Of a stretch of DNA of 64,000 nt, positions 10,455 to 15,758 are shown piece after piece. This stretch comes from Seramator thermalis (GTDB lineage Bacteria; Bacteroidota; Bacteroidia; Bacteroidales; Dysgonomonadaceae), in NCBI RefSeq assembly GCF_004138125.1, contig NZ_RXHS01000005.1, forward strand, positions 62,001-126,000, given 5' to 3'. Made by a program: the position numbers and the translations under genes. Each line of letters begins with the position of its first letter. Position 1 is the stretch's first letter. Below the pieces are notes generated by a model. That model was not told where the DNA came from and ran no database searches. It saw only the letters and a program-made list of their open reading frames with translations.

Positions 10455-13070
10455 TTATTTTCTGAGCGCCTTGATATTTTCTTTCAACAATTCGATTTTG
10501 CTTTGGGCATCTGTCAATTTTTTGCGTTCATTTTCAACAATTTCCGGTTTGGCATTTTGAATAAAACGTTCGTTGCTCAATTTTTTCTGAACCGATTGTA
10601 AAAAGCCTTCCTGATAAGTGAGTTCGGCTTCGAGCTTTTTCAATTCGGCTTCCACGTCGATTTTTTCGGCCAGAGGTATCGAAAATTCGGTGGTTCCGAC
10701 CATAAAGCCAATGCCGCCTGCGCTCTTTTCATCTACCCTGTCGATAGCCGAAAGATTTGCCATTTTCAGGATAATGCTGTCGTAGGCGTGGTTGTAATCA
10801 CCAATCACTTGCAGCGTCAGCACTTCCTTGTTCGGAATGTTTTTTTCCAGCCGCACGGTGCGAATACCCGCGATAATTTCCTTCGTCGATTCGAAATCGG
10901 CAAGCAATCGGTTATCAATGCTTCGGGCACGAGGTTGCAACGCCGTCATGATACTTTCGCCCGGTTGACGTTCTTCGAGTGCCTGCCACAATTCTTCCGT
11001 GATGAAAGGCATAAACGGATGAAGCAGTCGCAGCAAGGCATCGAAAAATTGCAGGGTCGATTGATAAGTTTGGCTATCGATGGGTTGTTGATAGGCGGGT
11101 TTGATAATTTCGAGATACCACGACGAAAACTCATCCCAAAAAAGTTTGTACACCATCATCAGGGCTTCCGAAAGGCGGTATTTCGAAAACAAATCGTCCA
11201 CTTCGGCAATGGTTCCCGAAAGTTTCGACTCGAACCATTCGATGGCAATTTTCGACGATTCCGGCTGTTCGATTTCGGCCGTCTGCCATCCTTTGACCAG
11301 CCGAAAGGCATTCCAAATCTTATTGTTGAAGTTACGTCCCTGTTCGCATAGCGCTTCGTCGAAAAGCAGATCGTTTCCGGCAGCGGACGACAGCAGCATG
11401 CCCATGCGCACACCATCGGCACCATATTTGTTCATCAATTCAATCGGATCGGGCGAGTTGCCCAATTGCTTGGACATTTTGCGACCGAGTTTGTCGCGAA
11501 CGATTCCGGTAAAATATACATTGCGGAAGCAAGGTTGCTTGCGATATTCGTATCCGGCCATGATCATGCGGGCAACCCAAAAGAAGATGATATCCGGACC
11601 CGTTACCAAATCGTCTGTTGGATAATAGTAGTTGATATCTTTGTTGTCGGGATGATTGATGCCGTCGAACACCGAAATAGGCCACAACCACGACGAAAAC
11701 CAGGTATCGAGCACGTCTTCGTCCTGTTTCAGATCGTCGATCGTAATCGGATAATCTACCTGTTTTTTTGCCTTTTCGTAGGCTTCCTCTTTTGTCATAG
11801 CCACCACGTACCCGCCTTTGGGCAGAAAATAAGCCGGAATGCGGTGTCCCCACCACAATTGGCGACTGATGCACCAGTCTTTCACATTCTCCATCCAGTG
11901 GCGATAGGTGTTTTTGTATTTATCGGGATAGAATTTGATCGTATCATTTTCTACTGCTTCCAAGGCCGGTTTGGCAAGTTGATCCATTTTCAGAAACCAC
12001 TGCATCGACAGTTTGGGCTCGATCACTTCGTTGGTGCGTTCCGAAAAGCCGACCTTGTTGGTATAGGGTTCTGTTTTTTCGAGCAGACCGGCTTCCTGCA
12101 GATCTTTTTCGATTTTTTTGCGCACTTCAAAGCGATCCATGCCCGTGTAAGGAGCTCCGTTTTCGTTGAGCGTGCCGTCGGGATTGAAAATATCGATGGA
12201 AGGCAGACGATGTTTTTCGCCCAGCATATAGTCGTTGATATCGTGTGCGGGAGTTACTTTAAGGCAACCCGTACCGAAATCGATATCGACATATTCGTCT
12301 TCGATCACCGGAATTACGCGATTGATGATCGGCACGATTACTTTTTTGCCTTTCAGGCGGGCGTTTTTCGGATCGTCGGGATGGATGCACATGGCCGTAT
12401 CCCCCATGATGGTTTCCGGACGAGTAGTTGCAACCACGGCATAGTCATCTTCACCTTCCACGCGGTAGCGGAGGTAATATAATTTTCCGTTTACTTCCTT
12501 GTGAATGACTTCCTCGTCGGATAGGGCGGTCAGCGCTTTCGGATCCCAATTCACCATGCGAACGCCCCGATAGATCAATCCTTTATCGAAAAGGTCGCAA
12601 AAAACGCGCAGCACGCTCTCGGAACGTATTTCGTCCATCGTGAATGAGGTTCGGTCCCAGTCGCACGATGCGCCCAGTTTTTTAAGCTGTTCGAGTATGA
12701 TTCCGCCGTGTTCGTGAGTCCAATCCCAGGCATGACGAAGAAATTCGTCGCGTGAGAGGTCGTTTTTCTTGATGCCTTGCGATGCAAGTCGCGCCACCAC
12801 CTTCGCTTCGGTAGCGATGGAGGCATGGTCGGTTCCGGGAACCCAGCAAGCATTTTTGCCCTGCATGCGTGCACGTCGCACAAGTACATCCTGAATCGTG
12901 TTGTTGAGCATGTGCCCCATGTGCAATACGCCGGTAACGTTTGGTGGCGGAATGACAATCGTATAGGGTTCACGTTCATCGGGTTCGGAATGGAATAAAC
13001 GGTTTTCCATCCAATATTTGTACCACTTGTCTTCTACTTCTGCAGGGTTGTATTTGCTTGCAATTTCCAT
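10455..13070 (-). CDS. valS: Valyl-tRNA synthetase
   Basis: Class I aminoacyl-tRNA synthetase that charges tRNA-Val and edits threonine. HIGH-type motif HMGH at residues 50-53 in [17 protein letters not shown] at 531-535 in place of KMSKS; editing domain around [12 protein letters not shown] (215-226). The last 70 residues form the charged coiled-coil arm that contacts tRNA. 871 residues, full length. The ATG at 13070 follows a good -7 element by 20 bases. Confidence 0.97.
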
Positions 13071-13098: not shown

Positions 13099-13414
13099 CA
13101 AAAAAAAGACAAGCAGACAAGTGAAAATCAGTTGTAACGATGTCTTGAAGGTTTGTTTCGAAAGGTAACGACAGATGAAAAGGAAGCGGAAATATTGATA
13201 TTTATTCGGGATAAAAGGGACTTTGTCGCGAAGAATTGCAATTCGGCGTGGATGCCTCGTATGTCTTTTTTCGCTCAAAAATAGAGTTAATATACTAAAA
13301 CAACAATCAATATTTATTTAATATCACATTCTTTTCAATTCGTAAATATATTCACGTTCATTTACATTTCGACATAGTTGTTAATCTGAAACGGCTGTTT
13401 TATATCGATTTTTA
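13099..13414. other. Upstream region of valS before the repeat array
   Basis: AT-rich stretch with no coding frame that looks like a protein and no tRNA-like fold. The last 45 bases (about 13370-13414) may be one eroded unit of the 43-bp array. A T-box or other leader RNA was looked for and not found. Confidence 0.4.
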
Positions 13415-14098
13415 CACTTTTTAACGCGACGAGTAGGTTTTGTGTCATAACATTGGTCACTTTCCATTTTGACGAGTGACCTTTGTGTTCACACAAAACG
13501 TACTTTCCTGAATGCGGAATGGCATTTGTGAACCCAAAATGGTCGCTTTTCACTTTGACGACCGACCTTTTACGATTTACATGACCCACTCCGTTAACAA
13601 ATTATGGGATGTTTCTCCATTTTTGATAACTATTTTTAAGGTGGAGTGACTTTTGTGCAGACACAAAACCCGTTCCTCGCGGCGACGAGTGAGTTTTGTC
13701 TGCAAACAAAGGTCGTTCCTTTTAACGTCGAACAACCTTTTTCGGGTGAAAAAGGTCGTTCCGCATTTTGCGACGTGAGTTGTTTCGATAGTAAAAGGTC
13801 GTTCAGCGCAATGCGAAGTGGGCAATTCGGCAAAAACAGGTCACTCCGCATCCTGCGGACGGGGTGTTTTACCGGTAAAAAGTCGCTCCTCATAGCGGAA
13901 AGTAGGTTTTGTGTCTGCACAAAAGCCGTTCCTCGTGATAACAAGTCGTAATTTTCAGCGGAAAATTATCGTTCCTTTAACAGTCCGGTAACCTTTTCGA
14001 ATAGCGATTGGTCGTTCCGCAAAATGGGAATCCCATCATGTGGCAGTGAAATGGTCGTTCGGCAAAATGACGAGTGGGGTTTTCGGTGTGGCGAATTG
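13415..14098. repeat. 43-bp tandem repeat array, 16 diverged units with paired hairpins
   Basis: Units begin at 13415, 13458, 13501, 13544, 13587, 13628, 13671, 13714, 13757, 13800, 13842, 13884, 13927, 13970, 14013 and 14056; spacing is 43 with 41 or 42 in three places. A unit opens with CGTTCC or CACTCC, then a GC-rich mini-hairpin (for example CCGCA-TCC-TGCGG, unit positions 5-17), often GACGAGTG, then a second hairpin. In units 2, 6, 8, 11, 12 and 13 the second hairpin has its four-base loop exactly at unit positions 31-34, with different but pairing arms: TTTGTG/CACAAA, CCTTTTTC/GAAAAAGG, TTTTA/TAAAA and TAATTTTC/GAAAATTA. It lies downstream of namZ and upstream of valS, both leftward. 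Reading frames across it are repeat artefacts. Confidence 0.9.
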
Positions 14099-14197
14099 AC
14101 AAATCCCAAAACGGAAAGGGAAAATTTATTTTTGATAGTGTGCCTCTTTTAGGTCGAAATCCGCATTTCGGTTTTTGTCCTCAAGCTTTTGCTTCCA

Positions 14198-15361
14198 TCA
14201 CTCTGCATACAGCAGATAGGGTTTGCGTTGCTGCTTGAATCGAATCACATCATTCTGCCATTTTGCCTTGATTTCCCGGGCCGATTTTCCGGCAATGATG
14301 TCGCGACGAATGTAATCGACACCCACAAGTTTTTCGAAAAAAGGAGTAAAAAATCGTTCGCCCATTTGAAGATTTTGGTAGGCATCGATGAGGTAGGAAA
14401 GGTCGAATCCTCGATCGCGAATCGTCGAAAATGGGATGTTCCGCAGATCAACTCCGCAACAGCGCTGATTGAGCAACGGCGGATTTTTTGCGCCCGGCAT
14501 GCTTTGGGGCGTGAAACAAAAAGTGGAGCCTTTATACCTCGGATGCCCGTAAACCTGAAACGGGAATGGGGTGCCGCGACCAAGACTCACGACGGTGCCT
14601 TCGAACAGACAAACCGAAGGATAGAGATAAATCGATTGCATGTTAGGAAGATTGGGCGATGGCGCTATGGGCAATTCGTACAACGTTTGATGGGTATAGT
14701 TTTCGCACGGAATGACGGTCAGGTCGCACTTGCGTTTTTCGGGCAGCCAACCTTCACCGTTGATCATTAAGGCCAATTCGCCCGGCGTCATGCCGTGAAC
14801 GATCGGAATCGGCAGCCAGCCGACACCCGATTTGTGTTTCATATCGAGGATGGGTCCGTCCACATAAAATCCGTTGGGATTGGGACGGTCGAGCACAATC
14901 ATTTTCTTTCCCGTTTCGGCGCAGGCATCCATCATGCGGGCCATGCTGATGTAATAGGTATAAAATCGCAAGCCGACATCCTGCAAATCGAAGACGAGGA
15001 CGTCGAACTGTTTCATTTGCTCGGGCGAAGGCTTTCCGCCCGCATTTCCGTAAAGCGACCAGATTGGAATTCCGGTTTTTTCGTCGATGGAATTATTGAC
15101 ATGTTCGCCGGCATCGGCATTGCCCCGAAATCCGTGTTCGGGTGAGAAAATCCCTACAATATTTATACCGTTTCTCACTAATGCATCCACCAAATGTTCG
15201 TTCCCAACGATGCCGGTTTGATTGGAAAGAACGACCACCTTTTTCCCTTCGATAAGCGGCAAATAGCAATCGGTGCGTTCGGCGCCAACTTTCACGGGAG
15301 GAATTTGTGCAAACACGGATAGCGTTGCAAGAAATGAGACGAAGAGGAAAAATGGTTTCAT
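14198..15361 (-). CDS. namZ: DUF1343 / NamZ-type exo-beta-N-acetylmuramidase, secreted
   Basis: Member of the family that includes Bacillus NamZ and a Tannerella homologue, which releases N-acetylmuramic acid from the non-reducing end of peptidoglycan fragments. The N-terminal domain carries VVLSNQTGIVG and GIFSPEHGFRG, and VLDRPNPNG is the conserved core. The start at 15361 gives a clean signal peptide (MKPFFLFVSFLATLSVFAQ) and about 387 residues; a longer frame would overlap the MerR gene. One base separates it from the MerR stop, so the two form an operon. It fits recycling of cell-wall sugars. The array follows its stop. Confidence 0.88.
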   Translation of the reverse strand: MKPFFLFVSFLATLSVFAQIPPVKVGAERTDCYLPLIEGKKVVVLSNQTGIVGNEHLVDALVRNGINIVGIFSPEHGFRGNADAGEHVNNSIDEKTGIPIWSLYGNAGGKPSPEQMKQFDVLVFDLQDVGLRFYTYYISMARMMDACAETGKKMIVLDRPNPNGFYVDGPILDMKHKSGVGWLPIPIVHGMTPGELALMINGEGWLPEKRKCDLTVIPCENYTHQTLYELPIAPSPNLPNMQSIYLYPSVCLFEGTVVSLGRGTPFPFQVYGHPRYKGSTFCFTPQSMPGAKNPPLLNQRCCGVDLRNIPFSTIRDRGFDLSYLIDAYQNLQMGERFFTPFFEKLVGVDYIRRDIIAGKSAREIKAKWQNDVIRFKQQRKPYLLYAE

Positions 15362-15362
15362 T

Positions 15363-15758
15363 TCAATCTTCGATTTGAGTTTTCGAATATTTCTGTTGCT
15401 GATGCAGCATTTCGAATTCTTCTTCGATAGAAGCCAATTCTTTGCGAATTTCCTGGAGACGGGCAACGGCTTCGACACGTTTTTCTTCGTCGTCCTTTTT
15501 CGATTTCAAAGTCTGTCGGGCGCCTTCTATGGTCATTCCCTTTTCTTTTACCAAATGATACACGATCTCGATTTGCTGAATATCCTCTTTGGTATATTGT
15601 CGTGTGCCTCCGGCTGTTTTTTTTGGGCGGATGTTTTCGAATTCTTTTTCCCAATAGCGGAGCAGCGATACATTCACGGCAAAATGGTCTGCCACTTCCT
15701 GTATGGAGTAGTAGAGCCGTTTATCGCTGAATTGGATGAGTTTTCTTCGTTTTGCCAT
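15363..15758 (-). CDS. MerR-family transcriptional regulator
   Basis: Winged-helix MerR DNA-binding domain at about residues 12-80: YYSIQEVADHFAVNVSLLRYWEKEF, then GGTRQYTKEDIQQI. A short coiled coil follows, with no cysteine-rich or large effector domain. The start at 15758 (MAKRRKL) is preferred because the -7 element at 15801-15808 excludes the in-frame start at 15836; length 131. It is divergent from alaS and co-transcribed with namZ. Ligand and target are unknown. Confidence 0.88.
   Translation of the reverse strand: MAKRRKLIQFSDKRLYYSIQEVADHFAVNVSLLRYWEKEFENIRPKKTAGGTRQYTKEDIQQIEIVYHLVKEKGMTIEGARQTLKSKKDDEEKRVEAVARLQEIRKELASIEEEFEMLHQQQKYSKTQIED

Follow-up and report, generated by a model that had tools for sequence, protein, structure and literature searches.

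Porphyromonas gingivalis, the host of BrickBuilt, belongs to the Bacteroidales. As described in the part of the source covered here, BrickBuilt is a minisatellite-carrying MITE consisting of a leader, 23-nt tandem repeats, and a tail; it is intergenic, is predicted to form stem-loops, and occurs in 19 copies, some of them at sites shared with a sister species (PMC4596501). According to the same account, terminators are predicted near 10 of the 19 copies, and segments of BrickBuilt have promoter activity in E. coli (PMC4596501). MITEPgRS and MITE464, also of P. gingivalis, are described there as dispersed non-autonomous elements with 41-nt tandem repeats and approximately 10-20 copies (PMC4596501). 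Palindromic repeats are further represented by BIMEs, i.e., extragenic clusters of REP palindromes, for which DNA-level roles such as supercoiling are suggested in the part of the source considered (PMC3733652).

Here, we compare with these systems a repeat found in a 64,000-nucleotide window, by which we mean the whole stretch of DNA analyzed. The span from position 13285 to approximately 14120 is one of eight copies, in its own genome, of a non-coding, intergenic, dispersed repeat that is present in two genomes of one Dysgonomonadaceae genus. Like BrickBuilt as described in the covered part of its source, the element has a narrow host range within the Bacteroidales and is intergenic, non-coding, and multi-copy (8 copies here vs. 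19); in both, tandem repeats of comparable size (half-units of 21.5 nt here vs. 23 nt) come after a leader without repeats, stem-loops are predicted, and some sites are shared with a sister species. Unlike BrickBuilt as described there, with its IS5-like terminal inverted repeats and 1 to 22.8 tandem repeats, our element keeps its register and unit number constant in the aligned copies, is built of alternating inverted half-units, and has no clear tail that we could see; a search for terminal inverted repeats in six copies (10-base windows, at most one mismatch) gave AT-rich matches in two and none in four. MITEPgRS and MITE464 are alike in their near-equal period (41 vs. 43 here) and in carrying tandem repeats inside a dispersed element. 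Unlike our element, they have terminal inverted repeats nearly identical to those of BrickBuilt and repetitive segments flanking the array, and dyads are not reported in the part of their description covered (PMC4596501).

The clustering of palindromic units in extragenic DNA is shared with BIMEs as described, but here there are eight copies of one array, with no solitary units among the candidates scored and no adjoining Y1 transposase. A unit model (R1) matched the arrays on both strands; 150 of 946 candidates were scored, and the 102 matches with E values of 0.05 or lower all lie within or overlap the eight arrays. The two Y1_Tnp matches in the genome (C38:17807-18151 and C7:37565-37909) are not near any array. 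A REP/BIME with a RAYT was rejected on these grounds.

No description of the element was recognized in the open-licence PMC literature, and its likeness to BrickBuilt rests on architecture as described, not on direct sequence comparison. An earlier sequence-only reading of the window had named no described family as a match; this holds for sequence, where no match was found, but not for architecture, in which BrickBuilt and MITEPgRS are similar as far as the covered description goes (PMC4596501). BrickBuilt, together with MITEPgRS/MITE464, is the nearest kind found. Overall, we favor, with a probability of about 0.5, a dispersed BrickBuilt-like repeat whose array is constrained as DNA, perhaps as a phased platform for protein.

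Architecture of the Array and of the Whole Element

The array lies between two minus-strand ORFs, at 10455-13070 and 14198-15478, which we take to be valS and namZ, respectively; these names, and those of trpS, hflX, lpd, and arcA, come from the sequence-only reading or from reading the translations. The whole element is approximately 800 bp long, intergenic, and composed of a leader and the array, with the following features:

13285..13414, + strand: AT-rich leader, outside the repeat, common to the copies having that end (leader-only search)
13415..14098, + strand: array of approximately sixteen 43-bp units with two dyad axes per unit, 21.5 bp apart (lag identity, dyad spacing, unit-model matches on both strands)
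13437..13590, + strand: left cassette, approximate limits, allele class A in the window copy (identity tables, sliding identity)
13591..13640, + strand: core GTTAACAAA-N24-ATAACTATTTTTAA, a diverged unit, with N23 in copy L018 (pattern search)
13636..13944, - strand: ORF across the array, spurious rather than a gene (no codon-position bias)
13649..13670, + strand: top class-2 dyad, axis 13659.5, 86% Watson-Crick over copies
13735..13756, + strand: class-2 dyad CCTTTTTC/GAAAAAGG, axis 13745.5, 85% Watson-Crick over copies
13842..13862, + strand: top class-1 dyad, axis 13852, 76% Watson-Crick over copies
14066..14120, + strand: ragged 3' end, homology between copies fading (alignment of copies)

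At lags of 43 and 86, self-identity is 0.437 and 0.406, respectively, as compared with a peak of 0.339 in 500 block shuffles (lags 20-119), which bears out the diverged array of approximately sixteen 43-bp units that the sequence-only reading had placed between namZ and valS. The axes at 13659.5, 13681.0, 13702.5, 13724.0, 13745.5, and 13767.0 give a dyad spacing of 21.5 bp, with approximately 31 dyads in the array, two per unit. The 43-bp unit is thus two inverted half-units, and since these alternate, the array is alike on both strands. Watson-Crick pairs occupy 1725 of 3334 cells (51.7%) at the 31 axes, which were set at the 21.5-bp spacing and refined within one base, and 17.8-29.6% of cells off register, where the controls had no refinement. 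At least 55% Watson-Crick pairing over the copies is reached at 13 of the 31 dyads, with the other 18 below that level; therefore, the earlier claim of two stem-loops in each unit is sound as to two dyads per unit but overstated as to pairing. The six second hairpins that had been singled out (units 2, 6, 8, 11, 12, and 13) correspond to the dyads at 13489.5, 13659.5, 13745.5, 13873.5, 13915.5, and 13958.5, with 58-86% Watson-Crick pairing over copies.

Class-2 axes have a variable center (mean minority frequency of 0.20-0.27 within 3 bases) and conserved outer arms (0.05-0.09 at 5-10 bases), and the palindrome at axis 13659.5 differs among three allele classes, A, B, and C. By eye, GACCTTTG in class-2 dyads resembles the IS5-type ends listed for BrickBuilt in the part of its description covered. 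The mean column identity of a unit alignment (A1; 94 units from eight copies, with diverged core units left out) is 60%. TRF at a score of 30 reported nothing at 13415-14098, and a CRISPR array was rejected, given this result and units without near-identical direct repeats.

The array limits of 13415-14098 given by the sequence-only reading stand, although the element itself continues downstream to approximately 14120 and upstream to approximately 13285, through a leader that had been missed. A leader-only search recovered all eight copies in the genome of the window and three plus a truncated one in the related genome, with the rest at E 0.136 or worse, and found no solitary leader above background. 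Leader identity between copies is 71-94%, and in the three copies folded, the leader gave no fold signal (z from +0.5 to -1.3). The core pattern TTAACAAAN{20,30}ATAACTATTTTT has eight matches in the genome of the window, five in the related genome, and none in the other 99 family genomes.

The core also contains an 11-codon ATG-TAA frame (13604-13639); by eye, most copies keep this frame open, L018 has a frameshift in it, and L021 and L022 lack its ATG. A terminator-like CTAAC...GTTAG palindrome is visible by eye immediately before the leader in L010, L012, L013, L014, L016, L018, and L019; palindromes of a similar sort are present elsewhere in the related genome. A protein-coding repeat was rejected: in the 102-aa frame across the array, substitutions by codon position number 57/46/47, with similar values in two other frames, and the frame is broken in 7 of the 12 copies compared. 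The array is non-coding, as had been proposed.

Copies, Distribution, and Placement

Eight near-full copies are present in the genome of the window (G000), on contigs C1, C6, C11, C22, C23, C33, C35, and C38; the window copy is that on C33, and the other seven are 77-92% identical to it. The sole congener compared (G001, 83% complete) has four copies, on C5, C75, C82, and C138 + C49, two of which are cut by contig ends (C82 is truncated, and one copy is split over C138 and C49), and a remnant (L023) on C16, which is a reduced trpS-side copy. A DNA search of 41 genomes found the element in these two only, family scans found matches in 2 of 101 genomes, again G000 and G001, and a sample of the order found only the genome itself (1 of 393). 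Candidates scored per genome numbered 13 in the 41-genome search, 5 and 61 in the family scans, and 15 in the order sample, so weak relatives could be missed. A longer core pattern matched five contigs of the G001 MAG only in a collection of genome contigs. The DNA searches of phages and plasmids and the core-pattern search of viral contigs gave no match, and a phage or plasmid origin was rejected accordingly.

As judged by flank proteins and DNA, four copies are syntenic between the two genomes: namZ, DUF6261, NUDIX-side, and cas9-side. Homologous arrays in intergenic regions with conserved flanks, which the sequence-only reading had proposed to look for in relatives, are thus present in the congener. 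At the hflX-side site, 896 bp separate the flank matches in G000 vs. 17 bp in G001, although the latter could be a deletion rather than an empty site; no target duplication was visible by eye at this one site, where the junctions have drifted. Since neither terminal inverted repeats nor a target duplication were found, mobility rests on copy number and this one filled/empty site. The flanks of L010 match G001 contigs that end nearby, and the downstream flank of L011 was not found in G001.

Several observations concern the neighborhoods of individual copies. The first concerns L016 and L018 and the region L055:8974-18103: L016 lies upstream of a cas9 gene (1436 aa in L055, Cas9 by PADLOC), and its syntenic copy in G001, L018, precedes an ORF with 88% identity to that Cas9. 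Beyond cas9, G000 has more ORFs and a repeat array with a 77-bp period (21.6 copies), consistent with a CRISPR array. A CRISPR link of the element was rejected: one copy (L016, syntenic L018) is upstream of cas9, but within the set of flank ORFs its flank proteins matched nothing except one another. Downstream of the element at the syntenic DUF6261 site (L014/L054 and L019), the DNA of the two genomes differs: G000 has a helicase together with a type IIG restriction-modification protein, and G001 has a type II methyltransferase. A stretch of approximately 350 bp next to L019 has a match in the 3' flank of L010 as well, as if the element were at an exchange point. The leader of L011 adjoins a different dispersed repeat (from about -594 to -132, counted from the BLAST start of the element), pieces of which match many places in G001.

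The position of the window copy, between the 3' end of namZ and the 5' end of valS, would suit a local regulatory device, either a multi-hairpin terminator of merR-namZ, as the sequence-only reading had suggested among other roles, or a portable promoter/terminator for neighbors such as valS. Promoter-like sites are consistent with this, numbering 6 vs. 2.5 (sd 1.5) in shuffles, as is the promoter activity of BrickBuilt segments reported in the covered part of their description (PMC4596501). However, terminator-like sites number 1 vs. 1.8 expected, and the copies are found in convergent (L010, L011, L012), divergent (L014, L016), and co-directional (L009, L013, L015) settings, as defined by ORFs of at least 90 aa and, for L015, only when one disregards an ORF of 116 aa that overlaps the end of the element. 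The merR-namZ terminator was rejected on these two grounds, and a regulatory device of any such kind seems very unlikely. The favored reading, a dispersed BrickBuilt-like repeat, is taken up below with evidence from comparison of its copies.

Alleles and Block Exchange between Copies

The left block (approximately 13437-13590) exists as three alleles that are 61-75% identical between classes. Among five dispersed copies in G000, the left block is 96-99% identical and the right half 81-93%, and this mosaic pattern is also evident in sliding identity along the copies. The right halves of seven of the eight G000 copies cluster apart from those of G001 (support 0.979), and the remaining, cas9-side copy has a right half with 83-85% identity to the G001 copies but 78-83% to most of those in its own genome. 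The two DUF6261-side copies are both of class B in the left block (89%). Gene conversion between copies is the likely cause of this mosaic.

These patterns bear directly on the earlier claim that arms change in concert, through sequence drift "rather than recent copying." The concerted change is real at several dyads, but conversion, which can swap a whole palindromic block at once, accounts for much of it; the near-identity of left blocks in five dispersed copies with diverged right halves is contrary to the exclusion of recent copying. Since copies exchange blocks, selection on RNA cannot be read cleanly from arms that change together.

Block exchange is also what would be expected of a selfish or inert repeat with no host function, its palindromes renewed by mutation, in the form of template switching at quasipalindromes, and by gene conversion among copies as well as among units. 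Template switching at quasipalindromes is on record, according to the parts of the sources covered (PMC7202029, PMC8604942), and one copy (L023) is reduced to a remnant. Minority-base changes at dyads point in the same direction, with 110 single Watson-Crick losses vs. 41 single gains and 19 entries of both-sided change from one Watson-Crick pair to another, where most pairs are entered once from each side. These counts include dyads before 14030 and columns with at least nine letters, each base being counted once whatever its copy number. The same register in complete copies and in three diverged left-block alleles, and the rarity of insertions and deletions relative to flanks (given below), argue against an inert repeat, which we regard as possible but doubtful. 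By comparison, the favored BrickBuilt-like element, appearing to be a non-autonomous, minisatellite-carrying repeat with copies homogenized by gene conversion, would include the same exchange and add a constraint on the array.

Tests for Selection on RNA

The sequence-only reading had taken retained pairing to imply selection on RNA or cruciform structure. A long structured non-coding RNA of approximately 30 hairpins, transcribed from the leader, would be in accord with three of five covariation measures in A1: paired cells (65.7% vs. 62.9% shuffled and 38.0-45.2% slid), cells changed on both sides (151 vs. 112.3 shuffled), and the covariation score (0.267 vs. 0.235 shuffled), with none of 500 shuffles as high in any of them. 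However, the units and copies in A1 are related and have exchanged blocks, the controls are count-based, and the two measures least inflated by relatedness do not exceed the shuffles, i.e., pairs with both-sided change (15 vs. 14.2; 166 of 500 as high) and further pair types (44 vs. 48.8; 498 of 500 as high). Within single arrays, no covariation was seen for class-1 arms (p values of 0.18-0.93), and it was weak for class-2 arms (p values of 0.008-0.53, below 0.05 in 4 of 10 copies).

Pooled over dyads on the + strand, G.T cells number 413 vs. 256 A.C, which exceeds the composition expectation (0.135 to 0.111) and is what an RNA from the + strand would also give. Among minority-base changes that break a Watson-Crick pair, by contrast, there is no preference for G.T (26, vs. 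33 to A.C; p = 0.43), and ancestral arms, copied through the units, are the probable source of the pooled excess.

Folding energies of three copies are low on the + strand (MFE z of -7.1, -6.1, and -5.7), in keeping with an RNA, but the - strand folds equally (z of -7.5, -6.8, and -5.3). The consensus fold of the whole alignment (882 columns), computed without a shuffled control, has values of -39.5 (+ strand) and -30.1 (- strand). Rfam gave no match at gathering score (below it, E 0.29-4.6), so a known RNA family was rejected, and the leader has no exact Bacteroidetes promoter pattern. We conclude that there is no good evidence of selection on RNA, contrary to the sequence-only reading, and consider a long structured RNA improbable. 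The favored reading places the constraint on the DNA itself, and tests of this are described in the next section.

Register and Constraint on Duplex DNA

Syntenic array pairs differ at 14-24% of positions through mismatches, and insertions and deletions among them are rare. Four array pairs (two partial from contig ends) have 2 indels per 452 mismatches, as compared with 19 per 280 in four of seven syntenic intergenic flank pairs (Fisher p = 1.4e-6; pairs left out of the flank count being L016/L018 upstream, L009/L020, and L013/L023), and a second aligner with all seven flanks gave 14 per 414 in arrays vs. 52 per 290 in flanks (p = 3.5e-9); array segments were cut at aligned columns and flank ends were not, which bears on this comparison. 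Relative to mismatches, indels are thus depleted approximately 15-fold as compared with flanks by one aligner and approximately 5-fold by the other, although gene conversion may erase indels and so exaggerate the constraint on register.

The alignment of 13 copies over 13415-14030 (three of them partial) has only two 1-nt internal gaps, with the L023 remnant and a 36-bp match on C36 being outside the alignment. In five copies that represent the three left-block classes, Watson-Crick pairing is 0.47-0.60 at offset 0, the best offset in each, vs. 0.24-0.26 off register; symmetry is therefore retained under sequence drift, as the sequence-only reading had held. Spacing and symmetry seem to be guarded while the letters change. 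Only two genomes carry the element, one of them 83% complete, so few events are represented and the copies are not independent.

A guarded register agrees best with two-fold sites set in a phased row along duplex DNA, with indel-erasing conversion as the main caveat. The constraint may act on the double-stranded array rather than on RNA, and two-fold-symmetric sites in a phased row, approximately two helical turns apart, may be where a putative dimeric DNA-binding protein or nucleoid factor assembles. If a protein assembles on phased sites in this way, base changes would be tolerated and insertions and deletions would not.

A more specific version would be that the row of approximately 30 dyads in constant register is a phased nucleoprotein platform with exchangeable tip alleles, where several hairpins share one recognition code that changes with a putative partner protein. 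The idea comes from the left-arm tips of class-2 dyads in the tip region (13437-13670), which read TTTGTG in 5 of 15 in L009 (class A) and TTTGACC in 4 of 15 in L014 (class B), at four same places. Strict co-change of tips is counter-indicated by L019, which is mixed, with class B tips in the left block and the class C palindrome at 13659.5, and a shared code is in our judgment unlikely. The more general form of the favored reading, a BrickBuilt-like repeat with an array constrained as DNA, does not include such a code.

Implications

An apparently isolated array becomes a repeat family, with eight natural copies whose alleles are mosaic, partners at syntenic sites in a sister species, and a single filled/empty site. 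The element would add a second Bacteroidales lineage for the minisatellite-in-element kind known from P. gingivalis. It also provides a caution for the study of palindromic arrays, in which block exchange between copies can mimic RNA covariation; a count of G.T vs. A.C changes and a count of indels help to separate constraint at the RNA level from constraint at the DNA level. The register constraint on DNA would be the interesting part, as read from the few genomes on which it rests, and if the depletion of indels holds in more genomes, it would point to a novel phased DNA-protein assembly.
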